From: Aquimarina sp. TRL1
GTDB taxonomy: Bacteria; Bacteroidota; Bacteroidia; Flavobacteriales; Flavobacteriaceae
Length of the DNA stretch: 64,000 nucleotides
Reading direction: 5' to 3'
Assembly: GCF_013365535.1 (NCBI RefSeq)
Contig: NZ_CP053590.1
Coordinates: forward strand, 4,764,501-4,828,500
Every line of letters starts with the position of its first letter. The stretch's first letter is position 1. Below are positions 12,693 through 32,125 of this stretch, piece by piece. The notes under the pieces are model-generated. The model saw nothing but the letters and a program-made list of their open reading frames with translations, did not search any database and was not told the origin of the DNA. Both the position numbers and the translations under genes were made by a program.

Positions 12693-13099
12693 CGTTATAT
12701 TTAAATTAGTTAATACCTCAAAATTAGTCGCTCAGATACTCTTTAGTCCTGTGAAAAATAAGATTAACGATTAATTGTTATTTCATTAAGAAGTATTAAT
12801 ACGATTATCAAAAAAGAACTACAAACTCCTACTGTTATTAAGTGCTTTTAACGTTAAAAATGTTAAACAATCCCTAATGCTTTTTTTAAAATATATTCCC
12901 CAATGCTTTGAATATTCTTTTCTCACAATTCAAAAAACCAGAGTGCTAGCATTTTTTATTTTTCTTTTCTTCGTATTCTAATTTTCGACATATCATTGAT
13001 ATGCACATGATCATATCATCGTTTTTTACGAAAAATTAACATCTCTATGCTATAGATTACATTATTTTAGAGGGTGCAAACCAATTATTATAGATACAC
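12693..13099. other. Divergent promoter region
   Basis: 407 AT-rich bases between the protease gene and the dcyD-like gene, which diverge. Both promoters must lie here. I see no convincing operator or hairpin. Confidence 0.5.
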
Positions 13100-14107
13100 A
13101 TGACTGAAATGGCTTCAAAATATAATCTCGGTTTTTTTCCGACACCTCTTCATGAATTAAAAACACTTTCTACGTTATACGACAATTATACTATCTATAT
13201 AAAACGTGATGATCAAACAGGTTTGGCTACTGGAGGAAATAAGACCAGAAAACTTGAATACTTATTACAAGAAGCTTTGCATCAAGGGTGTGATGCGATA
13301 ATTACTGCAGGAGCGCAACAATCTAATCACTGTCGTCAAACGGCTGCTGCCTGTGCTATAGCTAATCTAGAATGTCATTTAATGCTCGGAGGTACACGCC
13401 CGGATCAATTTGATGGGAATTTATTGCTATCCTCGATTCTTGGAGCTACCATTCATTTTACAGGAGACAATAGAAAAGGAGAAGATATTATTTCCTTAAA
13501 AAAACAATTAGAACAACAAGGGAAAAAACCCTATATAATTCCATATGGAGGATCTAATAGTATTGGGGCAATGGGATTTGTCCACGCTATAAAAGAACTA
13601 AAAGCACAGCTTTCCTCTCAACAGGTACAAATAGATTACATCTTTTTTGCCTCCAGTTCTGGAGGAATGCAGGCCGGGGTAACAATGGGGTGTGAAATAT
13701 ACGATCTAAATACAACCTTAATCCCTATTAATATCGATAAAGATGAAACTCATGGAACAGCTTTAGAGCAAGTGGTATTGGACATTATTCGAGAAGGCAG
13801 CAAGACATTGCCAATTAATCGCAGCTATACTATTGACGATATTCCACTAAATAAAGAATATGATGAGGCTGGTTATGGTGTATTTACGCACCAAGAAAAT
13901 AAGGCCATCACTACCCTGGCACAAAAAGAAGGGATTCTTTTGGATCCTGTATATACTGGACGAGCATTTTATGGAATGATCGATCACCTGGAAAAGAAAA
14001 AGATACCAGTAAATTCTAAGGTACTGTTTTGGCATACAGGAGGATTTCCTGCAATTTTTAAATTTACGGAAGCATTAAGCCCACAAACGAAAGCTGCTTA
14101 TGAATAA
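13100..14107 (+). CDS. D-cysteine desulfhydrase / ACC deaminase-family PLP enzyme
   Basis: A 335-residue fold-type II PLP enzyme. The motif GGNKTRKLE places the Schiff-base lysine at Lys48. AGAQQSNHCRQTAAACA is the conserved substrate/phosphate region and the C-terminal LFWHTGGFPAIF is the usual PLP-phosphate loop. Members either split D-cysteine to pyruvate, H2S and ammonia or open the ACC ring to 2-oxobutyrate. Sequence by eye does not decide, but in marine flavobacteria D-cysteine desulfhydrase is the more common call. It overlaps the next gene by 8 bp, which suggests translational coupling with the transglutaminase-like protein. Confidence 0.85.
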   Translation: MTEMASKYNLGFFPTPLHELKTLSTLYDNYTIYIKRDDQTGLATGGNKTRKLEYLLQEALHQGCDAIITAGAQQSNHCRQTAAACAIANLECHLMLGGTRPDQFDGNLLLSSILGATIHFTGDNRKGEDIISLKKQLEQQGKKPYIIPYGGSNSIGAMGFVHAIKELKAQLSSQQVQIDYIFFASSSGGMQAGVTMGCEIYDLNTTLIPINIDKDETHGTALEQVVLDIIREGSKTLPINRSYTIDDIPLNKEYDEAGYGVFTHQENKAITTLAQKEGILLDPVYTGRAFYGMIDHLEKKKIPVNSKVLFWHTGGFPAIFKFTEALSPQTKAAYE

Positions 14108-18977: not shown

Positions 18978-19922
18978 ATGGCAACCCTAAAAGATAATCA
19001 ACTTGGTAAAGTTATTGTGCTAAGCACCCAGCATCTATTTGGTAGAAATAAAGCCGTAGTAAACACTTTTTTACCGGAAAATGATGTTTCAAAAAGTCAT
19101 GCTATTATATTTTGGAAAGGGGATTCCTGGTATTTACAAGATCAAAGCAAAAATGGAACACTTGTAGATAACAAATTTATTCACAATGATATTATTCAAT
19201 TAAAAGTTGGTCAAAAAATAAAATTCACCCAACGAAATGACTCTTTTTGGAAAATTACAAACCTCAACAAACCCTGTAGTTATATTCAAAATATTTTTGA
19301 TGCTTCTTATATAGAATTAGATCTCGGAGTATTATTAATTAATAATGATGTAAAAGATTGTATGTTATACATTAATGAGGACAAAAAATGGATTTTAGAA
19401 AATGATGAACGATCTATGATCATTAATGATGGGGATTTTATCCGTTTTCAAAATCAACATTGGATATTTCATAAAAATGAAGACCTTGAAGATACAGTAC
19501 GCTCTAAAAACATCCTAAAAAATATCACATTCTTATTCGAAGTATGCCCCTCTTATAATGAAGTTATTATTACGGTTTTAATCAATGATTATAAAATCGT
19601 ATTAGGCGCATCTTCATCTCACCTTATTTTACTTTTATTAGCTAAAAAAGTACAGGAAGATATGTCTCTGGAAATCCCTTCATCCCATATCGGATGGATA
19701 AAAACCGAAACGCTCATCGATGTTCTCAATGAATCTATCTCTGGACATATTGATAGTCATTTCATCAATGAACAGCTATATCAAGTAAGAAAAGAATTAT
19801 ACGAGATTGAGAACTATGGTCATCTATTAGGTAGTCTAATCGAAAAGAAAAATGCACGAATTCGCTTTAATCATTCTCGCATTGCTATTACAGAATCATC
19901 AACATCATTAAAAATAGATTAA
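18978..19922 (+). CDS. FHA-domain protein with C-terminal winged-helix-like region (copy 1)
   Basis: A 314-residue cytoplasmic protein. Residues about 1-95 form an FHA domain with the phospho-Thr-binding signature: FGRN (21-24), VSKSHA (37-42) and KNGT (58-61). The C-terminal part, about residues 180-300, contains IGWIKTETLIDVLNE and QLYQVRKELYEIENYG, which looks like a helix-turn-helix/winged-helix module; that is inference. It is clearly paralogous to the protein at 29618-30574 in the same order of domains. The two genes bracket the kinase/YcaO cluster, so it likely reads phosphorylation by the adjacent Ser/Thr kinase and may act as its transcriptional output. Confidence 0.85.
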   Translation: MATLKDNQLGKVIVLSTQHLFGRNKAVVNTFLPENDVSKSHAIIFWKGDSWYLQDQSKNGTLVDNKFIHNDIIQLKVGQKIKFTQRNDSFWKITNLNKPCSYIQNIFDASYIELDLGVLLINNDVKDCMLYINEDKKWILENDERSMIINDGDFIRFQNQHWIFHKNEDLEDTVRSKNILKNITFLFEVCPSYNEVIITVLINDYKIVLGASSSHLILLLLAKKVQEDMSLEIPSSHIGWIKTETLIDVLNESISGHIDSHFINEQLYQVRKELYEIENYGHLLGSLIEKKNARIRFNHSRIAITESSTSLKID

Positions 19923-20567
19923 ACAAGTAAAAAACAACAAACTCATATTATAAAAAAATAACAATGAACTATCACACCCTATATTTCTGTATATCTGACA
20001 ATTTATAATAAAAAAGTAAGAATTAACTTTCATAAAAATAAAAAATGTAGTAATTATATTACATAAAAAATCTTAAAATAAAATTTTGATAATCTAAAAA
20101 AATAGTAAATTGTATGCGGTTTTGTAGCCATTTTTATCCTTTTTAAAAATAAAATGTAATATAAAACCTATTAATAAACCTACCCTAAAAATGAGTACTT
20201 TACACAACAATTTACTTTCAGTAACTGGTATTATATCATTTCATTTTTTTGAAATGATGAACTATAAAAACAATGTTACTTATTATCAAAAAAGAAAAAG
20301 TACTTGCTTTTTATCTTTACTCAATACTATTCCCTGTAAAAAAACAGTGATTGTATTAGCAAAAAAAAGAATTTTCAGAAAGCAGGGCTTCAATCTTCGG
20401 GAGCATTTTTCAAGCATATTCATACCTCTATTTTCTATAAGAATCTCTTTTTTAAGGTTTTGGTTACAATCTATTGTCGCTATAAGGTAGTACTACTGCA
20501 TCCTAACGAATTGTTTTTGAGCAATTCTCACAACGATACTAAAAAATCTTGCTAATAATTTTTCACA
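19923..20567. other. Intergenic region upstream of the kinase gene
   Basis: 645 AT-rich bases between the FHA gene and the kinase gene. A 99-codon frame (20191-20490) lies here but has no family features and unusual composition, so it is not called. An AATTGTA element at 20108-20114 matches the repeated motif seen before the second FHA gene. Confidence 0.5.
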
Positions 20568-23500
20568 ATGAATACATCTAACAATCAAAAGGCTGATTCG
20601 GACCTAGAAATAAAGAACTATACCATTATTGAACTTATTGGGGAAGGTGGTTATGGAAAAGTATATAAAGCACTTCAGAAAAGTACAGAACAGACCGTAG
20701 CTATCAAACTACTTAAGTTTAGTCTAACACTAGACGAAAATAAAAAGAAACAGCAGATACATCGTTTCGAAAGAGAAACTAAACTCTGTGCTGAAATCAG
20801 CCATCCTAATATTGTAAAAATGTTAGATAAGGGCTATACAACTACTGGAGAGCCTTTTGCCGTATTTGAATATATTTCAGGAGTTACCCTAAAAGATTTA
20901 ATTATAAAAAACAATGGTCTTGCTCCTCAAAAAGCAGCACTTCTTATGGGGCAAGTTCTGGATGCATTGGTCAGTGCTCATAAGAAAGGAATTGTACACC
21001 GGGATCTAAAACCTCAAAATATCATGGTAACCAATACAGGAGCTGCCCCAGTGGCAAAAGTATTGGATTTTGGTATTGGAGCGATTACTCATGAGGTTCG
21101 ATCCAAAGATTATATGAGCCTTACTCTAACTAAAGAAATGGTAGGGACTCCTGCTTATAGTGCTCCTGAGCAATTACGGGGAGAAGCACCTACCGTAAAA
21201 TCCGATTTATATGCCTGGGGATTGGTATTAATAGAGTGCCTTACCGGGCAGCCGGTAATCCACGGAAACTCAGTTGCAGAAATTTTCCAACAACAATTAC
21301 ATCCCAGTAATATTGTATTGCCCGCATCGCTGGCAGGTCATGAAATAGCTGATATATTAAGAAAAGTACTTGACAAAAAATCCCGTACCCGAATTGGAGA
21401 TGCAACCCGATTGTACAATGATTTTATCAAAATAAATTTCCAATCACTGGTTGGTAACCTCAGTGAGAAAAAAGTAACACACGCTATTGATAGTGATACC
21501 GAGGTCAATGAAATGGTTTGGACCCCAACTGCCAATGAAAAACGACAAATCAACGTTCTGGCGATTAAGCTCGGGATGACAGTAACCAAACAATGTGCAC
21601 TTGACACAGAAACTATAGAGACAATTCACCAAGATCAACTTCGCAATTGTGAAGATATTGCTATTCGCTATGGAGGATATACTGCCGGAAAAATTACGAA
21701 TAACCTGCTTATTTATTTCGGATATCCTCAAGTAAGTGATAATGATGCGCGAAGAGCAGGAAGAACTGCTCTGGAAATCATATCTCAGATAAAGCGAAGA
21801 GGAGAAACCTTGCTACAGCAACAAGGCCTGGAATTTCATATTAGAATCGCTATTCACTCTGGAGATGTAATGATCAACCCCAATGCAACCCCTGACGGAA
21901 AAGTCCCTGGAACCGCATTTGATCTTTTATATCAAACACGTGATAATTCCGTTCAGGTTACTGAAACTTCCAAAAAATTATTAGATCCGTATCTTGTTTT
22001 TAAAAAACCTACCCATATACAATTAGCTTTTTCTCATGAAGCCATCCCTATTTATGAACTGGTTGGGGAACACCAAATGGAAGCTTCTTCATTCTTACGT
22101 CCATGGAGTGCTAATAGAGCAATGATCGGTCGTATTAAAGAAAAAAACACAATTCTATCTGCATGGAAAGATACAATCACAGGAAACGGTTCCTCTATAT
22201 TGATAAAAGGGAGAGCTGGTATCGGAAAATCCAAGTTGATTTATGAGATAAAAAAAGAAATCCATCAACAACAATACGCTATAAAAGAGTGCAGGTGTCT
22301 CCCGGAGCACCAAAATAATGCCTTATATCCTTTCTTTTATATGCTTCGTAATCATTGGGAAATTGACACCATACAAACAGTGGTAGAAACCATTGCTATA
22401 CTCGAAAAGGAATTAGAAAAAATAGGTTGTGAATTAACCGAGAGTATGCCTATCCTCTGCTCCTGGCTTTCCATTCCATTACCGGACTCTTATACGATTA
22501 CCCCCAGTCCGCCTGAACAACAAAAAAACATCCTGTTTTCGATATTAAAAAATTATATCCTCTCTTTAGGAAACGATCTTCCTTTTCTTCTTATTATAGA
22601 AGACCTTCATTGGACTGATCCCACCAGTAAGGAATTTATAGAATTCTTACTAAGTGATCTCTCCGATCATTCATTATTGATGATCATGACAGCCAGGCTG
22701 GAATTTACTCATGAATGGAAGCAAACATACCATCGAGATATTTCATTAAAAACACTCTCTAAAACATACACCCGTAATCTGATACTTGGTGTATTAGAAG
22801 GAGGAGAACTCGATCAGGAAACTTTAAACTATATCGCACAAAGAACAGATGGAATTCCTCTTTATATAGAAGAACTTACTAAAATGCTTCATGATCAAGG
22901 TTATTTGACTCAGGAAGATAACTTATACCAACTAATCAAAAAAGAAGCAATCAAGAATATTCCGGTAACCTTAAAAGATTTATTAAATGCTCGCTTAGAT
23001 ACTCTTGGGTTTGCCAAAGAAACTGCACAATTAGCTGCTGCAATCGGAAGAGAATTCTCCTATGACATTCTGATAAAATCTTCCTTACGGGATGAAGGAC
23101 TGGTACAAAATGATCTGGATATTCTGGTCAGTGCCGATTTAATTTATCGTCAACGAAAAGTAGAAGGAGAAAGTTATATTTTCAGACACGCATTAATTCG
23201 TGATGCCGCTTATGACGGGATGGTTTCTTCTTATAAAAAAGAAGTACACCTGAGAATTGCCGATGCCTTAAAAAATGAATTCGAAACACAAACGTTTATA
23301 GATGCTTTCTTAATTGCGACGCACCTTGCTGAAGCCGAAAAATATGAAGAAGCTTGTGAATACGGGATTAAAGCAGCCAAAAATTCTCTAGAACATTCTT
23401 CTAATTTAGAAATAAAATCAATAACTAATTCTTTACTTAATTGGGTTCCACAAATAAATGACGAAATAGTGAAAAACGCTATTGAATTCAAAGTCAATTT

Positions 23501-24650
23501 TTTAAGATACCCATCGATCACAGCAATACATGGAATAGGTCATGAAGAATTAACCAATCTTAGTACTAGGAATAATGAAATTGATAATTTTCTAACTTCG
23601 AAAAATTATTTTGAGCATAAGAAAGATCAATTTAATACGAGATTTCTTAATTCTTTTACTTTATTACAAAATGAATTATATACAGGTAATTATGACGCTG
23701 CTATAGAAATAGGAGAAGAAATTTTAGCTGAATCAGAAGTTTTGAAAAATAGACATTATAAAATATTAGTCCTACCTAGTCTTGCTCAGACATATCACAT
23801 TAAAGGAAACTTAACAAAGGCTGAACAACTTTTAAATACAGGATTAAAACTATACAATGATAATGAAGATAAAGAACTATGGAAAACTTTTGGTATAGAG
23901 GCTAAAGCTAATAGCTTATATATCTTAGGTTTTTTAAAATGTTGTTTAGGTGAAATTGATAATGCATACAAATTATGTAATGAAGGGTATGAATGGTCAG
24001 AAAAAATAGGATGCTCAATGTTCAGTGATTTTGGAAAAGTATTCTCATGTTGGATTGCTTATGTATGTAATGATAAAGAAAAAATTGATGAGACTATCTC
24101 TTCTTATTTTATAAAGACTAATAAGAGTGAGAAAGAATGGGCTGGTTCTTATGGAATTTTACTATATGAATGGGCAAAAAACTCTAATAAATATTCAGAA
24201 TCATTTATAGATAATATTATACTTCAAAAAAGAGTTGGAGGATTATCTATATGGGAGTCCTTACTAGGAGAGATTCATTCAAATATTGGGGCGCATCAAT
24301 ATGCCATTAAACGAATGAAAAGCACATTAGTCAGAGCAAAAGAATTAAATGAAAAATGGGGACTTCCATTTGTTCATAAATCTTTAAGTCAAGCTTTTTT
24401 TAAAGAAAAGGGGTACATTTCTGAAGAATGTAAAAAACATTTCTTACTTGGAATACAAGAAGCTAAAAATCAAGGAGCTAAATGGATTGAATTAAATATA
24501 GCTTATTCTTATTGTGATCTTTTAATTAAAGAAAATAAAAAAGAAGAAGCTTTAGAATTATTAACCCCTTTAGTCAATGAGTTTCCCCAAACAACGGAAG
24601 CTCCTTTATATAAACATTCATTAAAATTAATTATAAACAACAAAAATTAA
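20568..24650 (+). CDS. Ser/Thr kinase - cyclase-like - AAA ATPase - helical-repeat fusion (TOMM kinase/cyclase type)
   Basis: A 1360-residue mosaic. Residues about 18-290 are a Hanks-type kinase with all key residues: glycine loop GEGGYGKVY, Lys47, HRDLKPQN (144-151), DFG (167-169) and GTPAYSAPEQ. Residues about 325-480 are a class III nucleotidyl cyclase-like domain, but the metal-binding Asp sites read AIKLGMT (Lys334) and KITNNLLIYFGYP instead of the usual Asp and GDG, so it is probably inactive. Residues about 520-760 form an AAA/STAND-like ATPase with Walker A GRAGIGKSK (548-556) and Walker B LLIIEDLHWTD. The last 500 residues are helical and probably TPR-like. The architecture matches the TOMM system kinase/cyclase fusion family (TIGR03903, from memory), found beside YcaO peptide clusters. 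It ends 5 bp before the precursor gene. Confidence 0.92.
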   Translation: MNTSNNQKADSDLEIKNYTIIELIGEGGYGKVYKALQKSTEQTVAIKLLKFSLTLDENKKKQQIHRFERETKLCAEISHPNIVKMLDKGYTTTGEPFAVFEYISGVTLKDLIIKNNGLAPQKAALLMGQVLDALVSAHKKGIVHRDLKPQNIMVTNTGAAPVAKVLDFGIGAITHEVRSKDYMSLTLTKEMVGTPAYSAPEQLRGEAPTVKSDLYAWGLVLIECLTGQPVIHGNSVAEIFQQQLHPSNIVLPASLAGHEIADILRKVLDKKSRTRIGDATRLYNDFIKINFQSLVGNLSEKKVTHAIDSDTEVNEMVWTPTANEKRQINVLAIKLGMTVTKQCALDTETIETIHQDQLRNCEDIAIRYGGYTAGKITNNLLIYFGYPQVSDNDARRAGRTALEIISQIKRRGETLLQQQGLEFHIRIAIHSGDVMINPNATPDGKVPGTAFDLLYQTRDNSVQVTETSKKLLDPYLVFKKPTHIQLAFSHEAIPIYELVGEHQMEASSFLRPWSANRAMIGRIKEKNTILSAWKDTITGNGSSILIKGRAGIGKSKLIYEIKKEIHQQQYAIKECRCLPEHQNNALYPFFYMLRNHWEIDTIQTVVETIAILEKELEKIGCELTESMPILCSWLSIPLPDSYTITPSPPEQQKNILFSILKNYILSLGNDLPFLLIIEDLHWTDPTSKEFIEFLLSDLSDHSLLMIMTARLEFTHEWKQTYHRDISLKTLSKTYTRNLILGVLEGGELDQETLNYIAQRTDGIPLYIEELTKMLHDQGYLTQEDNLYQLIKKEAIKNIPVTLKDLLNARLDTLGFAKETAQLAAAIGREFSYDILIKSSLRDEGLVQNDLDILVSADLIYRQRKVEGESYIFRHALIRDAAYDGMVSSYKKEVHLRIADALKNEFETQTFIDAFLIATHLAEAEKYEEACEYGIKAAKNSLEHSSNLEIKSITNSLLNWVPQINDEIVKNAIEFKVNFLRYPSITAIHGIGHEELTNLSTRNNEIDNFLTSKNYFEHKKDQFNTRFLNSFTLLQNELYTGNYDAAIEIGEEILAESEVLKNRHYKILVLPSLAQTYHIKGNLTKAEQLLNTGLKLYNDNEDKELWKTFGIEAKANSLYILGFLKCCLGEIDNAYKLCNEGYEWSEKIGCSMFSDFGKVFSCWIAYVCNDKEKIDETISSYFIKTNKSEKEWAGSYGILLYEWAKNSNKYSESFIDNIILQKRVGGLSIWESLLGEIHSNIGAHQYAIKRMKSTLVRAKELNEKWGLPFVHKSLSQAFFKEKGYISEECKKHFLLGIQEAKNQGAKWIELNIAYSYCDLLIKENKKEEALELLTPLVNEFPQTTEAPLYKHSLKLIINNKN

Positions 24651-24655
24651 ACACT

Positions 24656-25093
24656 ATGATCAATAGCAAAGATGAGTACGAAGGTGATGAAAATATATTA
24701 ATTGGAATCAAAGACAATGATGAATGGAAAACTGCATTTCTTCGTTTAGTCTGTGATATTTGGAGTAATAAAAACATAAATGGAAAAGATGTCTATGAAA
24801 TGGATTTTAAAGAGATTCGGGAACTTTTTATTAATCGATATAACTACACTCCTCCATCTAATCTTCGTATTACACTTACAGAATACAAAGGACAAAAATC
24901 GTATAAAAGAAATTTAGAAGAAAAGAAGGTTAATGGATGGTATGAAGTATTGAAGGATAATAATTCAGAAAATGCTTATTTTTCAACTGTCCAAATGATG
25001 GTACCTCCCAAACCTGAAAACGATGAGGACCTTGCTGCTGCTGTAACTGATTATATGGCTGCTGGAAAAGCATATCCTTTCACAATTGCCTAA
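24656..25093 (+). CDS. Putative NHLP-like RiPP precursor peptide
   Basis: A 145-residue protein with the layout of a nitrile-hydratase-like leader peptide (NHLP) precursor: a helical leader (DEWKTAFLRLVCDIW, then FKEIRELFINRYNYTPP), a beta segment (NLRITLTEYKG), the hallmark-like VQMMVPPKPENDEDLAAAV (residues 112-130) and a short tail, TDYMAAGKAYPFTIA. The tail is the likely core. It has two Thr, one Lys, no Ser and no Cys. The only Cys (Cys33) is in the leader. It sits between the kinase (5 bp gap) and the dioxygenase (11 bp gap), as expected for a substrate gene. I recall similar tails in BMA_0021-type TOMM peptides, but that needs a search. Confidence 0.75.
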   Translation: MINSKDEYEGDENILIGIKDNDEWKTAFLRLVCDIWSNKNINGKDVYEMDFKEIRELFINRYNYTPPSNLRITLTEYKGQKSYKRNLEEKKVNGWYEVLKDNNSENAYFSTVQMMVPPKPENDEDLAAAVTDYMAAGKAYPFTIA

Positions 25094-25104
25094 ATTTTAT
25101 CGAA

Positions 25105-25911
25105 ATGACTCTTAAAAAACAATTCAATGAAGATGGGTTTATTATTTTTTCTGACCCTTTATTTGATAAAAAAAGTTTGGAGTTAATTCGTCATAAGTAT
25201 ACAAACATCTTTAAAGGAAAGGAAAATCATTCTTTTCCTTTAAAGAATTGTTGGAATATTGGAAATCTCGATTTAATTCAAAAAATAGATCAATCTCATC
25301 TCTATGATCCATTAATACTAAACTTGTTAAAAAGTAATGTTTTTGGTAAAAAAGCTGCGGAGATTACAAATGCAACTCGAATATCAATCTGTGCTACCCA
25401 TTTCTTTTTTAAGCCTTGTAATGGAAGTATGTTAGGTAATATAGGATGGCATACTGACTCTAAATATGTTGATTTCGAAAATGGAACATTACTAGGCGCA
25501 TGGATACCTATAAGTGATGTCTCTGATGACTCCGGGACTCTAACCTTTTTAAAAAAATCTCACTTTTGGAAACAGAATAATATATCTCCTGCTAACGATG
25601 GAATGGAAAGAAACCTTAAAAAGCAAGCTACTATAATACAAAAAGAAGCTCCTGTTAATTATAAATGGGAAGAAACTCCTATGATCTCTAAGTCTGGTGG
25701 ATTGAGTTTTCATCATAACAATGTCTGGCATTATAGTCAAGAAAATACTTCTTCCGAGGATAGAATGAGTATTTCGATAGCTCTTTTTATAGAAGAAGAC
25801 AATCAATTAGAGAAACTTACATCTATAACAAATAAATTATGGCCTATTTCAGAAAGTAATAACTCCCCTATAGTAATATATGACAGAACACAAACCCCAC
25901 TAAATGATTGA
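25105..25911 (+). CDS. PhyH-family Fe(II)/2-oxoglutarate dioxygenase
   Basis: A 268-residue double-stranded beta-helix oxygenase of the phytanoyl-CoA dioxygenase family. The iron triad is visible as His116-x-Asp118 (IGWHTDSKYVD) and His209 (HNNVWHYS), and Arg220 (SEDRMSISIALF) fits 2-oxoglutarate binding. The family motif GTLLGAWIPISDVSDDSGTL, followed by FLKKSHFW, is also present. In this setting it probably hydroxylates a side chain of the precursor or an intermediate. It overlaps the YcaO gene by 8 bp, so the two are translationally coupled. Substrate assignment rests on context only. Confidence 0.88.
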   Translation: MTLKKQFNEDGFIIFSDPLFDKKSLELIRHKYTNIFKGKENHSFPLKNCWNIGNLDLIQKIDQSHLYDPLILNLLKSNVFGKKAAEITNATRISICATHFFFKPCNGSMLGNIGWHTDSKYVDFENGTLLGAWIPISDVSDDSGTLTFLKKSHFWKQNNISPANDGMERNLKKQATIIQKEAPVNYKWEETPMISKSGGLSFHHNNVWHYSQENTSSEDRMSISIALFIEEDNQLEKLTSITNKLWPISESNNSPIVIYDRTQTPLND

Positions 25912-28036
25912 TTTTGATAAAAAAATTGGCTGGCACCCAAAATTTACCAAAAAAGTTATTTCTAGGAATGAAATTATTTTGATTGGCGAAAATAATGACC
26001 ACCTATTTACAAATGACAAACACAAAAGAATAATTAATCTTGCTAATGGAAGTAAAAAAGTTTCTCAATTTATTGATGAAATTCCAAGCTTTATAGAAAA
26101 AGCCTCCTTCCTCTACTCTATTAAAACCCTTATTGATAAAGAAATTTTAGCTCCTTTACAAAGCGAAAAAGAAACGCTCTACCATCTTCCAAAAAAAACA
26201 AAAGATATAGAAATACATGATGATGTAACTATCTATAACTTATCACATATAAGTAGTACACTTCTTCAAAATATTTCAATATCAAAAAAAAATATCTCAC
26301 TTATATTTATTGATAATTATTTAGACCCAAGATTACATCTGATTAATAAAAAGCATGTTCACTCTCAACGCCCATATGTGCTTATTAAATTGACAGGTTC
26401 AAAACCAATGATAGGTCCATTTCTATCTATGAAAAAAAAACAACCATGTTGGAAATGTTTATCTAATCAACTACTTCAAAATCGTCCGATCCTCAATTTT
26501 CTATTAAAAAAAAATGTAGAAAACTATATCTCTCACCCAATATATCTTCAGAATGTAGAAATAGATTTAAAATGGGTTACAACAGTAATAAATGATACAA
26601 TTAAAAATGAAAATACCTGCTTTGAAATCAACTTACAAAACAATATTATTCTAAAAAAACACATTGTTCATAATAAACCCCAATGCTCAATTTGCGGAGA
26701 TAGACTACTTCTAAAAAAACAACTTCAATCCCCAGTAAATCTGCATAGTTGTTTGAAGAAAGAAAAAATGGATGGAGGATCGCGTTCAATGAGTCCTGAT
26801 GAAACTTTAGAAAAACTAGATAAATACATAAGTCCAATAACCGGTGTTATTTCTGGTTTAAGTTTTATATCAGAGAAAAAACAAAATACAATTACTATCT
26901 ATAAAAGTGTGTATTTTAAAACCCCTAGTCCTCAAGAAATAATTAATAATTCATCGTTTAGACAAATTTCATTAGGTAAAGGAATTGTTAATGACCAATC
27001 AAAAGTCAGTGCTTTGTGTGAATCTATTGAGCGATATGCTGCACTCTATCAAGGTGATGAATTCTATATAAAATCAGCTCCTGACAACCTAAATAAAAGG
27101 TACTACTTACCTTCTCAATTAGCCAAATTCAGTAAAAACCAATATCAAGATTATATAGATAACAAGTTACCTTCTAATATCCTTAATCATTTAGTGAATA
27201 TATATGATACAACCATTCCTTTGCATTGGACCCTCACTTGGTCTTTGACAAAAGAAGAGTTTGTCTACCTACCATTTAATCATTGCTTTTCAAATACACC
27301 TTTTGATCATGATAAACAATATATACATTGGAGTTCCAATGGATGCGCTGCCGGAAACTCAATAGAAGAAGCGATCATTCAAGGATTCTATGAACTTATA
27401 GAAAGAGATGCTTCTGCTATATGGTGGTATAATAAAATAGAACGACCACTAATTGATTTATCGACTATACAAGAAGGTAAGGTGTTCAAAATTCATGAAA
27501 CACTTAAAGATGAATGGGATTACTGGGCACTTGATATTACAAATGATTTTGATATTCCTACAATTGCAGCTATTGCTCAACACAAGAAAACTGGAGTATT
27601 TTGTTTTGGCTTTGGGTGCCACTTAAATATAGAAACAGCATGTACACGAGCATTAACAGAATTATGCCAATTAATACCTGTTCGAGAACAGAAAAATGCA
27701 CCCTTTGACTTTAATGCTATCGAAGAAGAACAATTTCTTAAAGGAAATGGAAATAAAAAGAAACTTTCTAGCTATCAAAATAATGAAAGTAAAGATATCA
27801 AAAATGATATTATATGGGGAATAAACAAGGCTAAAACACTTGGTTTTGAACTACTAGTCACAAACTACAGCAGACCTGATTTACCTATCAAAACAGTCAA
27901 AGTTACTATTCCTGGATTATGTTTTATTTGGCCTCAATTGGGAAATGAAAGGCTTTACAATCTGCCTATAAAACTTGGTTGGTCAAAACAAAAGTTACAA
28001 GAATGTGAATTAAATGAAATGGGGTTATATGTGTAA
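25904..28036 (+). CDS. Fused leader-binding (ThiF-like) and YcaO cyclodehydratase-type protein
   Basis: A 710-residue fusion. Residues 1-90 look like a leader-recognition winged helix. Residues about 90-300 are a cyclodehydratase partner (Ocin-ThiF-like) domain with two Zn-type CxxC pairs, Cys182/Cys185 (QPCWKCL) and Cys261/Cys264 (QCSICGD). Residues about 310-700 are YcaO: the ATP-binding glutamates are in SKVSALCESIERYAA (Glu373, Glu376) and NSIEEAIIQGFYELIERDA (Glu488, Glu497, Glu500). The C-terminus ends LNEMGLYV rather than the proline-rich PxPxP tail of azoline-forming SagD-type enzymes, so the reaction may differ. It should activate backbone amides of the precursor with ATP and form azolines or a related modification. 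No SagB-type dehydrogenase is nearby. Confidence 0.9.
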   Translation: MIDFDKKIGWHPKFTKKVISRNEIILIGENNDHLFTNDKHKRIINLANGSKKVSQFIDEIPSFIEKASFLYSIKTLIDKEILAPLQSEKETLYHLPKKTKDIEIHDDVTIYNLSHISSTLLQNISISKKNISLIFIDNYLDPRLHLINKKHVHSQRPYVLIKLTGSKPMIGPFLSMKKKQPCWKCLSNQLLQNRPILNFLLKKNVENYISHPIYLQNVEIDLKWVTTVINDTIKNENTCFEINLQNNIILKKHIVHNKPQCSICGDRLLLKKQLQSPVNLHSCLKKEKMDGGSRSMSPDETLEKLDKYISPITGVISGLSFISEKKQNTITIYKSVYFKTPSPQEIINNSSFRQISLGKGIVNDQSKVSALCESIERYAALYQGDEFYIKSAPDNLNKRYYLPSQLAKFSKNQYQDYIDNKLPSNILNHLVNIYDTTIPLHWTLTWSLTKEEFVYLPFNHCFSNTPFDHDKQYIHWSSNGCAAGNSIEEAIIQGFYELIERDASAIWWYNKIERPLIDLSTIQEGKVFKIHETLKDEWDYWALDITNDFDIPTIAAIAQHKKTGVFCFGFGCHLNIETACTRALTELCQLIPVREQKNAPFDFNAIEEEQFLKGNGNKKKLSSYQNNESKDIKNDIIWGINKAKTLGFELLVTNYSRPDLPIKTVKVTIPGLCFIWPQLGNERLYNLPIKLGWSKQKLQECELNEMGLYV

Positions 28037-28083
28037 TCATACCCCACTTATTAAAATATAATAGATCAAGGAACAACGTCAAA

Positions 28084-29364
28084 ATGAAATTTAAATCCTA
28101 TACAAGTAAAACCTTTAAAAAAACTACTTATTACTCAAATTTACCTGTGGAAGAACGCAAAGTATTTGATGTATTAACTCGAGTTTTTCATTTCAAGATT
28201 AATAATTATGTTATTGATACATTAATCAATTGGCAAAAAGTACCAAATGATCCAATATATAAGCTTGTCTTTCCTAGAAAAGAAATGTTACATATAAATG
28301 ATTATTTGAAACTCATAGAAATACAGGAAAGTGGTTCTGAAACTGAGTTATTGATTTTTATAAATCATGTAAAAAATAAAATGTTTCCGAAAATCAATTA
28401 CAATGAGAATTGTGTTCCTATCCATAATGGAAGTTTACTAAAAGGAGCTTACCGGTCTTTTAAAACAACTTTAGCTCTTTACCCTAATCCAATGGTAAAA
28501 ACATGCCATAGTTATTGTTCTTATTGTTTTAGATGGGTAACTTTTAACGATTACGAAATGCAAAATGCTTCTTCATATGATTTCCCTTTAGCTCCCGTAT
28601 CTTATTTAAAAGAACATAAGGAAATTACAGATGTTGTATTCACCGGAGCTGATCCTTTAATTATAAAAGCTGATACTTTAAAAAAATATATAGATCCGAT
28701 TTTAGATATTGAATCTGTTAAAGTAATTAATATAACGTCCAAATCTTTGGCGTGGTGGCCCTATCGATTCATTACAGATGTTGATTCTTATGAGCTCCTT
28801 AATTTATTTGAATATATTATTTCTAAGGGAAAACATCTTAATATATTAGCTCATTTTACACACTCCCAGGAATTAGAAGGAGAAATAATCAAAGAAGCCA
28901 CTCAACGTATAAAAAGAACTGGGGCTATTATACGATGTCAAGGACCATTAGTTAGAGATATAAATGACTCAACAGAGGCTTGGGTCAACTTATGGACCAA
29001 ACAAATAGAGTTGGGATTAATTCCTTTTTATATGCTTATGGAAGCAGATCATAATAAAGAAAGTTGTTTTAAAATTCCTTTAGATAAAGCACTCCATATA
29101 TTTGAAGAGGCACAAAAACAAACTTCAAGTATGAGTCGTACAGCTAGAGGTCCTGTATTTGTTAATGACGTACACAAAATCTTAATTGATGGAACTATTG
29201 ATATAAATGATCAAAAATATTTTGTATTAAAATCTTTACAAGCTCCTCCTTATACAGATGGAGAAGGTAGTATCAAATTATTGCCATATGATAAAGACAC
29301 GAAGGGTCCTGAAAATCTTTTTGAATTGTTTGAGGAAAAACAAATAGATACAATTTCTTTATAA
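28084..29364 (+). CDS. KamA-like radical SAM protein
   Basis: A 426-residue radical SAM enzyme related to lysine 2,3-aminomutase. The cluster-binding motif CxxxCxxC is Cys141, Cys145 and Cys148 (KTCHSYCSYCFRW), followed by the barrel motifs DVVFTGADPLI and GAIIRCQGPLVRDIND. The canonical C-terminal PLP lysine context of LAM (a glycine-rich loop with Lys) is not seen. The region reads TARGPVFVNDVHKILIDG, where the Lys of HKIL may or may not play that role. It is the last biosynthetic gene of the peptide cluster. A link to the single Lys of the putative core is tempting but speculative. Confidence 0.85.
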   Translation: MKFKSYTSKTFKKTTYYSNLPVEERKVFDVLTRVFHFKINNYVIDTLINWQKVPNDPIYKLVFPRKEMLHINDYLKLIEIQESGSETELLIFINHVKNKMFPKINYNENCVPIHNGSLLKGAYRSFKTTLALYPNPMVKTCHSYCSYCFRWVTFNDYEMQNASSYDFPLAPVSYLKEHKEITDVVFTGADPLIIKADTLKKYIDPILDIESVKVINITSKSLAWWPYRFITDVDSYELLNLFEYIISKGKHLNILAHFTHSQELEGEIIKEATQRIKRTGAIIRCQGPLVRDINDSTEAWVNLWTKQIELGLIPFYMLMEADHNKESCFKIPLDKALHIFEEAQKQTSSMSRTARGPVFVNDVHKILIDGTIDINDQKYFVLKSLQAPPYTDGEGSIKLLPYDKDTKGPENLFELFEEKQIDTISL

Positions 29365-29452
29365 ACTACAAAATACGTATCTTATTAAAGAAGTGAAATT
29401 ATCAGGTATTTTTACTTATTTAAAGCTGAAAAAATTAATTTTAAATTTGTAG

Positions 29453-29604
29453 TACAATTATTACATTTTTAGTTTTTATTTGTATATCTTAAACATTAAT
29501 ACAAGTATTTTTGGTTTACAAGAACTAAAAAACAGTCTGTTCAGAATTGTATTACTTTAAGTTGTCAAACGAAAAAACCTGTAATACAATTAGTTATACA
29601 ATTA
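29453..29604. repeat. Repeated TACAATTA motifs and 11-bp dyad upstream of the second FHA gene
   Basis: AATTGTATTAC (29545-29555) is perfectly inverted as GTAATACAATT (29581-29591). ATACAATTA occurs twice, 12 bp apart (29584-29592 and 29596-29604), and TACAATTA also at 29453-29460. Such clustered sites just before a start codon look like an operator for a DNA-binding protein, possibly the FHA/winged-helix protein itself. Confidence 0.5.
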
Positions 29605-29617
29605 AAATCTCTTAACC

Positions 29618-30574
29618 ATGGCAGTTCTAAAAAATAATACCTTAGGAGACATTGTAGTATTAAATACACATCATGTATTTGGTAGAAATCAATTTACTGC
29701 TAATACACATATTCAGGAAAATGACGTTTCCAAGTCTCATGCAACTATTTTCTGGAAATGTGGGATTTGGTATATCAAAGATCATAGCAGAAACGGTACG
29801 TTAATTAATGGAAAATACATTACACATACTACTGTAAAATTGTCTAAAGGAGATACTGTACAATACGGTAGAAGCAATACCACTAAATGGGAAATGGTCG
29901 ATGACGATACACCTAGCTGTTATCTAAAATCATTGACTTATGAAAATAAAATTCTATCGTTGTCCTCTTGCCTGGAATTATGCAATGAAGAAGATCCAGA
30001 AATTACATTCTATTGTACACAGGACATGAAATGGAAAGCAGAAAAAGGGGGTAAAACTATTGAGCTTTTTCAGGGGATAACCTTAGAATTTAATAATGAA
30101 GAATGGATGTTTATAGAAAATAGTAGTCTCGACGAAACTATTGACTATAGGCAGATTATTGATCGTGCATATTTTGTATTCACACTGAGTGCCGATGAAG
30201 AAAATAGCCATATCAAAATAGTGATGAATGAGCTGGAGTTAGATCTTGGAACCCGAGTTCATAATTATTTACTACTTACCCTCGCCAGACAACGATTATC
30301 TGATGCTAACTTAGGTTATGTATTCGATGATCAAGGGTGGGTATCCTTAACAGATCTAACCATTGATTTAACGAAAGAATTCGGAAAAGAAATTGATATT
30401 TATTATGTAAATCTTCAAATTCATCGTCTGAGAAAGTTTTTAATAAAACTGGAACCTTATGGCTACCTTTTCTCTAATGTTATAGAACGAAAAAATGGAA
30501 AAATACGATTTGTACACCGCTATTTCAAAATCATCAAAGAAGGACAAGCTATAGGAGAAATCCTATCAGTATAA
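29618..30574 (+). CDS. FHA-domain protein with C-terminal winged-helix-like region (copy 2)
   Basis: A 318-residue paralogue of the protein at 18978-19922. The FHA signature is complete: FGRN (21-24), VSKSHA (37-42) and RNGT (58-61). The C-terminal region holds QGWVSLTDLTIDLTKEFG and NLQIHRLRKFLIKLEPYG, a helix-turn-helix-like module, then a basic end IERKNGKIRFVHRYFKI. It has its own upstream region with clustered TACAATTA repeats and is closed by a strong terminator, which marks the right end of the cluster. Likely role: phospho-threonine-dependent regulator acting with the adjacent kinase (inference). Confidence 0.85.
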   Translation: MAVLKNNTLGDIVVLNTHHVFGRNQFTANTHIQENDVSKSHATIFWKCGIWYIKDHSRNGTLINGKYITHTTVKLSKGDTVQYGRSNTTKWEMVDDDTPSCYLKSLTYENKILSLSSCLELCNEEDPEITFYCTQDMKWKAEKGGKTIELFQGITLEFNNEEWMFIENSSLDETIDYRQIIDRAYFVFTLSADEENSHIKIVMNELELDLGTRVHNYLLLTLARQRLSDANLGYVFDDQGWVSLTDLTIDLTKEFGKEIDIYYVNLQIHRLRKFLIKLEPYGYLFSNVIERKNGKIRFVHRYFKIIKEGQAIGEILSV

Positions 30575-30874
30575 CAAAAGCATAAAAAAACAAGTAGAAA
30601 AAGCCTGCAATAGCAGGCTTTTTTTATGGCTAATATCTTCCTGCAAGTGCTACGTCTATTTCTTTTTAATGATTCATTTGATAAAAAATAATACCGATCC
30701 CCTCAGCCTTAATCATTTGAACGAAACAACCCTTTTTAAACTATTAAAAACCAATACTTTATTTATGATTTCCCCTCAACCTCAATAATGATTTATTAAA
30801 TACCTTAGTAAGGTGTAGGCAGTACCCTCTGCCAATACAACAACACATAAATCTTAAAACCAAAACCAAAAAAA
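30575..30874. other. Intergenic region upstream of the PSD-like gene
   Basis: Three hundred bases with the terminator of the FHA gene at 30598-30626 and AT-rich promoter space before the decarboxylase-like gene. Nothing else was seen. Confidence 0.5.
30598..30626 (+). terminator. Rho-independent terminator closing the RiPP cluster
   Basis: AAGCCTGC (30601-30608) pairs with GCAGGCTT (30613-30620) over AATA, then T-tract. It lies 24 bp after the second FHA gene. Confidence 0.88.
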
Positions 30875-32125
30875 ATGGAAAGCACATTTATTGATGTACT
30901 ACAAAAAGGAGTTGCTAAAAAACCTAAAAAAGCAATCATCTACAGACACGAAGAAGTCGTTGTAGAATTACAGGAAATAGTTCATAACCATCCGATGCTT
31001 GGAGATGCGATCACTGCTTCTCTTATCGCAGCAAAAAAAATTGCTGTCGAAAAAAAATTAAAGAACATGGATAAGTTTGAATGGCCTCAGACCCTTAATG
31101 AATATTACAGCTATCTGGACCGGTTTGTAAGATGGATTCCTACTGAAGCCGATATCAGTTCTAAAGAAAATTACGATCAGGAAATTATGAATAAGCTATG
31201 TCATTTTTACTGGTTAATCAATCATGTACAAAATATTCCTGTTTTCTCCGAGTGGCTGGTCACCTTTGCCAATGACTGGGGAAGTTTTCTGAATACACCA
31301 GAATCCATTACCCCAGAAAGTTTACAGTCTTTTATGAACCAGCCGCTATTTAAGATGGAAGACTATATGATCCCTCCAGGAGCATATACTCCAGAAGGTA
31401 AAGGAGCGATTCCTAATAACGCTAGCGGATGGCTAACATTTAATCAATTTTTTGCCAGAGAAGCACTCCCTGGAAAGAGACCTGTTGATGAGATGAGGAA
31501 TGATCAGGTAGTAGTATCCCCAGCTGATGCCGAATTCAAAGAAGAATTCCCAATTAATGAAAATTCCGAAATTATCATCGATGGAAAAGCCTCCCTAAAA
31601 ACCAAACGTATTAAAGGGACACACGCCTATTCAATCAAAGAATTAATTGCCGGAAGTGGGTATGAAGATGCTTTTGCCAATGGAACTTATATGCATTCTT
31701 TTTTATCTCCATATGATTTGCATCGTTTTTGTGCCCCGGTGGCAGGAGAAGTAAAGTATTCCAAAGCGATTCAGGGAAAGGTGTTTCTGGAAGTAACAAT
31801 TACTGATGATGGAGAATTCGATGCACCTGATAATGCAAGTAATGGGTATGAGTTTAAGCAAACTCGTGGCGTATTAATTTTAGATACCGGAGAGAAAAAC
31901 GGACTAGTAGCTGTAATACCTGTTGGAATGGCACAGGTGTCTTCTGTAAATATGAATGCTACTGCCGGGGTACATCTATTCAAAGGACAAGAATTTGGAT
32001 ATTTCTTATTCGGAGGATCTGATATTATTCTTCTATACCAGGAAAAAAGTAATTTTAAATTAGAAATTGGTAATGAAAAGAAAAAACTTGCAGGAAACAA
32101 AATCGGAGTTTTCCAAACCAGCTAG
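30875..32125 (+). CDS. Phosphatidylserine decarboxylase-family protein
   Basis: A 416-residue protein. The C-terminal two-thirds match the PSD family: VSPADAEFKEEFPI (catalytic Asp/His region), GTHAYSIKELIAG, FLSPYDLHRFCAPVAGEV, and the self-cleavage/pyruvoyl site near the end, FGYFLFGGSDIILLY, where GGS stands in for the classical LGST. The extra N-terminal 150 residues resemble the PSD-related accessory domain seen in larger homologues. The enzyme would decarboxylate phosphatidylserine or a related serine or amino-acid derivative. In Bacteroidetes such long forms are often outside phospholipid operons. It is monocistronic, with no sign that it belongs to the peptide cluster. Confidence 0.85.
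   Translation: MESTFIDVLQKGVAKKPKKAIIYRHEEVVVELQEIVHNHPMLGDAITASLIAAKKIAVEKKLKNMDKFEWPQTLNEYYSYLDRFVRWIPTEADISSKENYDQEIMNKLCHFYWLINHVQNIPVFSEWLVTFANDWGSFLNTPESITPESLQSFMNQPLFKMEDYMIPPGAYTPEGKGAIPNNASGWLTFNQFFAREALPGKRPVDEMRNDQVVVSPADAEFKEEFPINENSEIIIDGKASLKTKRIKGTHAYSIKELIAGSGYEDAFANGTYMHSFLSPYDLHRFCAPVAGEVKYSKAIQGKVFLEVTITDDGEFDAPDNASNGYEFKQTRGVLILDTGEKNGLVAVIPVGMAQVSSVNMNATAGVHLFKGQEFGYFLFGGSDIILLYQEKSNFKLEIGNEKKKLAGNKIGVFQTS

Follow-up and report, generated by a model that had tools for sequence, protein, structure and literature searches.

A YcaO and KamA-like radical SAM gene cluster in Aquimarina sp. TRL1 related to the two-chain TOMM systems of the Burkholderiales

The closest described relatives of the gene cluster presented here are the two-chain thiazole/oxazole-modified microcin (TOMM) systems of the Burkholderiales, also called NHLP-Burk or BMA_0021/BMA_0022 systems. 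In the excerpted text of Haft, Basu and Mitchell (2010, PMC2887384), the TIGR03795 precursors of these systems are tandem pairs, sometimes fused, in which one chain has a Cys or Cys-Cys end, and they are near a fused cyclodehydratase and a large Ser/Thr kinase; the same text gives the NHLP-Burk precursors no Gly-Gly motif and places none of the three NHLP transport families close by in the NHLP-Burk species. A 'two-chain TOMM family' protein of B. thailandensis is listed as raised in the excerpted text of a study on entry into stationary phase (PMC12322963). The cluster considered here is at positions 18978-30574 of a 64,000-nucleotide stretch of Aquimarina sp. TRL1 (contig NZ_CP053590.1, positions 4,764,501 to 4,828,500), which is referred to throughout as the window. 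It consists of seven co-directional genes on the + strand, all with open frames, for an FHA protein (FHA1), a kinase fusion, a precursor, a PhyH-type oxygenase, a fused leader-binding/YcaO protein, a KamA-like radical SAM protein, and a second FHA protein (FHA2). The order and positions of these genes, given in a preliminary description made from the letters of the window alone, are confirmed; the domain families were judged against the curated family cut-offs of Pfam and NCBIfam. The proposal of a YcaO-type system for a ribosomally synthesized and post-translationally modified peptide (RiPP), with a kinase/FHA layer and a KamA-like radical SAM enzyme, is likewise supported by these scans and by the loci of relatives, which are numbered here from L001.

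With the NHLP-Burk systems the window shares a TIGR03903 kinase/cyclase protein, a precursor with a proposed C-terminal core, a fused leader-binding YcaO protein, FHA proteins (seen in L037, L038, and L040), and the lack of a recognised exporter. The Paraburkholderia locus L038 has genes for an FHA protein, TIGR03903, two BMA_0021 proteins, and YcaO. The Variovorax sp. PDNC026 plasmid locus L037 has a kinase, a fused precursor (tail PFTC, TIGR03795 180.5 bits), an LCM methyltransferase, YcaO, and FHA, and resembles the window in having one gene between precursor and YcaO, an FHA gene at the 3' end, and a tail of AYPFTC to compare with AYPFTIA. It differs in its fused two-chain precursor, in having the methyltransferase instead of PhyH, and in having no KamA. 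Indeed, no homologue of the window KamA or PhyH was found in L037, L038, or L040, and the NHLP-Burk precursors are paired or fused with Cys tails, whereas the window has a single precursor ending in FTIA. Classical SagB/C/D TOMM clusters share with the window a YcaO cyclodehydratase and a leader-binding partner, but the window has no SagB dehydrogenase, a large protein as precursor, and a kinase/FHA layer.

The combination of FHA, kinase, precursor, and YcaO, which is part of the larger combination that the preliminary description knew from no described system, is therefore not new, since the Burkholderiales two-chain TOMM layout has it (L038; for kinase, precursor, and YcaO also the excerpted text of PMC2887384). 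What is new is a Bacteroidota branch with a YcaO-adjacent KamA clade without the pyridoxal 5'-phosphate (PLP) signature and with a large-protein precursor family in the relatives. Within this branch the window is an odd member, having a YcaO that groups with those of Burkholderiales, FTIA for FTCC, and a PhyH found in its own genome only. In the literature, searched through titles, the starts of abstracts, and term counts, with subscription papers mostly out of reach, no paper on this YcaO/KamA RiPP combination was found.

We put at roughly 60% the probability that the cluster belongs to a Bacteroidota branch of a kinase-linked C-terminal TOMM system, in which YcaO, KamA, and PhyH act on the C-terminus of the precursor while the kinase and FHA proteins regulate. 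The precursor would be a folded protein whose core comprises only its last few residues, and would be bound by the leader-binding/E1-YcaO fusion, which would cyclodehydrate the conserved Thr or Ser, and in most relatives also the following Cys, Ser, or Thr, to azolines. The enzyme of the KamA clade, which has probably ceased to be a PLP aminomutase, would then make a substrate radical at or near the C-terminus of the precursor, with an outcome that could be an oxidation, a crosslink, loss of carbon dioxide, or something else. The kinase and FHA proteins may set expression or activity through phosphorylation. The gene set (FHA, kinase fusion, precursor, YcaO, KamA) is defined and repeatedly conserved and has an obvious substrate end, which makes the products of two-chain TOMM systems, the action of YcaO on the C-termini of folded proteins, and an aminomutase fold without PLP testable together. 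What would surprise specialists is the precursor family, together with a KamA clade that lacks the PLP signature.

The YcaO-linked KamA clade

The YcaO protein of the window (25904-28036) fuses a TOMM leader-binding/E1-like region (TIGR03882, 68.4 bits, cut-off 36.9) to a YcaO cyclodehydratase (PF02624, 256 bits, cut-off 25.7), and scores 208.3 bits against TIGR03604, just under the cut-off of 219.25. Among 395 genomes of the class it has a match in its own only (E 1e-15). Within the genus, the YcaO fusion is matched in 15 of 52 genomes, these being its own, 11 with strong matches (E 2e-92 to 2e-84, 32-35% identity), and three with weak ones. The 11 strong loci (L083-L093) have the order FHA, kinase, 1 to 4 open reading frames (ORFs), YcaO, KamA, with FHA, kinase (two ORFs in L084), and KamA each present in 10 of the 11; the contig of L089 begins within the precursors and that of L087 ends after YcaO. 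The three weak loci (L094-L096) are of a different TOMM type; in one of them (L095:4129-7792) a 365-aa protein with ACSCSCG-like stretches is encoded near a YcaO ending in HPFP.

Patterns derived from KamA, which can reach close relatives only, picked out four loci in the GTDB genomes. These are from Aquimarina pacifica (L001, with the end of a kinase, two precursors, YcaO, and KamA), a Bacteroidales metagenome-assembled genome (L003, with FHA, kinase, precursor, YcaO, and KamA), another such genome with the same order minus the kinase (L002), and a Cytophagales fragment that starts at KamA (L004). In L002:5639-7670 the FHA gene adjoins the precursor gene, unlike in its close relative L003. 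At E 1e-110 the A. pacifica KamA is matched in one of 397 genomes of the family, its own, few members of the genus being in that draw. The preliminary description looked to the co-occurrence of YcaO with KamA and PhyH in other genomes. For KamA this is found, its gene being directly 3' of YcaO in all 14 loci that have sequence there (the window, L001-L003, and 10 of the 11 congeners), but not for PhyH, a match to which is present in one of the 52 genomes of the genus, that of the window (E 1e-8).

The KamA-like protein (28084-29364) scores 105.2 bits against TIGR00238, below the cut-off of 199.2, and lies in the KamA tree inside a clade of the 14 YcaO-linked copies (support 100/100). It is similar to the KamA family (lysine 2,3-aminomutase, 2a5h, and EpmB) over the radical SAM core, and the linked clade retains the CxxxCxxC motif (Cys141, Cys145, and Cys148 in the window, 28504-28527) and the Arg after it. 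This residue, Arg150, aligns with Arg134 of lysine 2,3-aminomutase, which we take to bind the substrate carboxylate; in the linked enzymes it could hold the C-terminal carboxylate of the precursor.

Other residues distinguish the linked copies from their unlinked relatives. Of 395 genomes drawn from the phylum, 41 besides the window's own have KamA homologues of 35-41% identity. The surrounding genes were searched at E 1e-5 in 20 of them (two being very short contigs), and none of the other cluster proteins has a homologue there. All 20 of these unlinked proteins have QHKY, which aligns with HRY at residues 111-113 of lysine 2,3-aminomutase (our own count), presumably situated at the PLP phosphate, while HKY is lost in 14/14 linked copies and reads RSF in the window. 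The place of the PLP lysine, which we take to be Lys337 in lysine 2,3-aminomutase, is Lys in 20/20 unlinked proteins, where it sits in 'PGK' (once 'NGK') and aligns with the Lys of SKTP in EpmB; it is Arg in 13 of the 14 linked copies and Lys in the window (Lys365, codon 29176-29178). Cys285 and Cys328 are new, present in 14/14 linked and 0/20 unlinked copies, and Cys255 is present in 13/14, with Leu in the window. Judged from these residues, the linked clade seems to have lost the PLP (vitamin B6) cofactor of its aminomutase ancestors. That KamA is still an aminomutase, producing a free beta-amino acid for attachment to the precursor or for use elsewhere, would agree with the family match, with the window Lys, and with the retained CxxxCxxC and carboxylate Arg, but the loss of HKY throughout the clade and of Lys in all but one copy, and the fact that no ligase is recognised in the window cluster, make it improbable.

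Precursors and their C-termini

The window precursor (24656-25093, 145 aa) is matched by TIGR03795 (BMA_0021/BMA_0022 family TOMM bacteriocin) with 23.2 bits and E 6.8e-5, nearly the whole model being covered, against a cut-off of 41, and has the precomputed Pfam label PF27793.1. The same label is on 119 other listed homologues from a search whose query was an alignment of the window precursor with three Burkholderiales precursors (132 matches, 119 counted, the window's own left out). By this label it is probably of the NHLP-Burk/two-chain type, and the 'NHLP-like' of the preliminary description would hold in the sense of this type, to which Haft 2010, in the text excerpted, gives no Gly-Gly motif. 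Among the 119 listed homologues the tails are FTCC in 101, FSCC in nine, and others in nine, with Thr or Ser at -3 in 112. In the window the tail, which is the proposed core, is FTIA (25079-25090), where the Thr at -3 is retained and both Cys are gone, and the core would be reduced to this one Thr. With the window precursor as sole query, only the protein itself was found in about 5.8 billion proteins, and there is no second TIGR03795 match in its genome at E 10, the locus having a single precursor, neither paired nor fused.

In the 11 congener loci, the slot between kinase and YcaO contains 20 ORFs of 180-319 aa, 1 to 4 per locus. All 20 have three C/S/T residues as C-terminus, against none of the 101 remaining ORFs with 100 aa or more in these loci, although the 20 are related and their tails are thus not 20 independent events; the C+S+T content of these proteins is 14.6%. 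In L086 tandem precursor copies have three differences over 195 residues, one of them at the last residue (Cys or Thr). Database clusters of the 300-aa form (n=20), which overlap in part with the locus ORFs, some being identical, have the tails IATCT (6), IATCS (6), VATTT (4), FTFCS (3), and VATTS (1), so that C/S/T is at -2 and -1 in 20/20 and T/S at -3 in 17/20. What the preliminary description expected, a precursor conserved next to YcaO, is thus found within the genus for the slot and its kind of tail but not for the window precursor itself.

These proteins would be overlooked by mining with known precursor families, because no Pfam or NCBIfam family passes its cut-off in the members scanned, be it the congener ORFs (NCBIfam 5, Pfam 6, of 20) or the L001-L003 precursors (NCBIfam 3, Pfam 4), and the precomputed Pfam label is absent from 20/20 of the database clusters. 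Small and large forms of the family are kin by profile comparison (98.1%, E 1e-13). No member was found in the window genome, in a search made without a positive control.

An ordinary two-chain TOMM bacteriocin, whose C-terminal peptide is cleaved off and exported by the products of genes outside the cluster and in which KamA is a further tailoring enzyme, is the less likely explanation, although NCBIfam does name the family TOMM bacteriocin and the tandem precursors with differing tails resemble diversified cores. Against it, the cores are of only 2-4 residues with no Gly-Gly motif, and the excerpted text of Haft 2010 (PMC2887384) likewise has no transport families close by in NHLP-Burk species. 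No exporter or protease is recognised among the genes of the cluster, which is why the modified protein may stay whole. Tentatively, and less likely than not, the C-terminal TOMM reading may be taken further: in a folded protein of about 120-320 aa that stays intact, the last three residues would be turned into a heterocyclic, radical-tailored end group by YcaO and a PLP-free radical SAM enzyme of aminomutase descent. The product would be no cleaved peptide but a cofactor carried on the protein, a metal ligand, or a signal, and the window dioxygenase might supply the hydroxyl of the lost Cys/Ser/Thr.

This oxygenase (25105-25911) is of the PhyH-type Fe(II)/2-oxoglutarate family (PF05721, 59.4 bits, cut-off 22). 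In L037 the corresponding gap between fused precursor and YcaO holds the LCM carboxyl methyltransferase (PF04072, 42.8 bits against 22.3; 13087-13848), which means that both loci have one tailoring gene in that slot. PhyH would then occupy the tailoring slot held by the methyltransferase in Variovorax, where an enzyme of the leucine-carboxyl-methyltransferase family directs attention to the C-terminal carboxylate and hints at methylation there. Hydroxylation by PhyH of the Ile or Ala that comes after the conserved Thr, replacing the nucleophile of the lost Cys/Ser/Thr, would fit the fact that, among the loci examined, the sole precursor without C/S/T at -1 and -2 is in the sole locus with an oxygenase between precursor and YcaO; this is a single case, however, and Thr alone could be the substrate, which leaves the proposal with a slim chance.

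The preliminary description was correct that SagB is lacking: there is none near the locus and none over the cut-off in the window genome, where one 37.4-bit match (cut-off 78.4) is in a 2888-aa frame elsewhere, and SagB (TIGR03605) is absent at E 0.001 from 10 congener genomes with the cluster, the eleventh (G741, 78% complete) having been left out. The rings, if made, would remain azolines or be oxidised by another factor, perhaps the radical enzyme.

Several observations weigh against the interpretation as a C-terminal TOMM branch. The window KamA itself has Lys at the PLP place, so that PLP loss is least sure in this protein, and Lys to Arg is a mild change. Of the alignments made, the multiple alignment with EpmB alone supports the lysine column; one profile alignment ended before it, and hhalign against EpmB paired it differently or stopped short. 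The window precursor has no Cys tail and does not reach the cut-off of TIGR03795, and the window YcaO is a long branch. The precursor family of the relatives, in its small or large form, has no detectable kinship to the PF27793 two-chain family by profile comparison.

Origin of the window locus, putative regulatory genes and surroundings

In the YcaO tree the window and Variovorax (L037) proteins, 32% identical, form a pair (support 100/99). Together with two Burkholderiales proteins this pair makes up a group (90/85) that lies apart from the other 14 Bacteroidota sequences, which have a clade of their own (97/100). This would suggest a chimaeric locus, with a Burkholderiales-type precursor-PhyH-YcaO block between a Bacteroidota-type kinase and KamA, but is suggestive only, given the length of the window YcaO branch and the tree program's warning of false joins between long branches. 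Decay of the window cluster, which would make it a recombinant locus whose core has been lost and whose YcaO evolves fast, could account for the FTIA tail, the long YcaO branch, and the single precursor. Such decay is unlikely given that all seven frames are open, that the operon is tightly spaced, that the conserved Thr is retained, and that YcaO retains its motifs and 61 of the 65 columns invariant in 18 relatives.

The kinase gene (20568-24650) encodes a fusion of kinase, degenerate cyclase, AAA, and TPR parts (TIGR03903, 920.6 bits against a cut-off of 705.75), with HRDLKPQN and DFG in the kinase. Over the cut-off, TIGR03903 is found in one of 395 genomes of the phylum, the window's own; at E 0.001 it is found in 278, mostly through the kinase part. 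The kinase/cyclase fusion of the preliminary description is confirmed as such, but the 'cyclase' part is probably not a working cyclase, to judge from its residues: the first metal-Asp motif, which we take to be DxxGFT, is missing in the 16 aligned fusions, and the second metal-Asp place is Asp in 14 of 16 and Asn in the window and L003. On a Pseudoalteromonas plasmid (L039:7451-14262) a TIGR03903-like kinase/cyclase fusion is followed by ORFs of 82, 312, and 529 aa that have no Pfam family over the cut-off, and there is no TOMM YcaO fusion there; this kinase seems to belong to a different type of operon.

FHA1 (18978-19922; PF00498, 50.7 bits) and FHA2 (29618-30574; 51.1 bits, cut-off 20.7 for both) are 32% identical, and FHA2, which is 46-55% identical to the FHA proteins of six congeners, is the nearer to these. 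FHA proteins are present in both Burkholderiales and Bacteroidota clusters. Of the 'paired FHA/winged-helix proteins' described earlier, the FHA part stands, while for the other half no Pfam family passed, the best being OST-HTH (E 0.012, in 5 of 11 members); a C-terminal winged helix is plausible by eye. The cluster may contain a phosphorylation-controlled regulator.

The genes are most densely packed from kinase to YcaO, as had been noted, with 5 bp between kinase and precursor, 11 bp between precursor and PhyH, and an 8-bp overlap of PhyH and YcaO. The other gaps are of 645 bp (FHA1-kinase), 47 bp (YcaO-KamA), 253 bp (KamA-FHA2), and 300 bp (FHA2 to the next gene). The terminator previously placed after the last gene is likely, there being a hairpin with T-runs at 30598-30623 whose stem of 11 pairs, five of them G-C, is the longest listed; the number of terminator-like sites has no evidential value here, four being observed against 6.1 expected from shuffles.

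Downstream of KamA, at some distance, a conserved ORF of about 119-154 aa is present in seven of the 11 congeners (L083-L086, L089-L091) and was not found in the window. In L093 (13669-17760) KamA is immediately followed by a PLP decarboxylase gene and a gene for a Lys/Orn monooxygenase, and the two resemble the beginning of a siderophore cluster. Beyond the hairpin in the window, at 30875-32125, is a phosphatidylserine decarboxylase-like protein of 416 aa with a long N-terminal extension.

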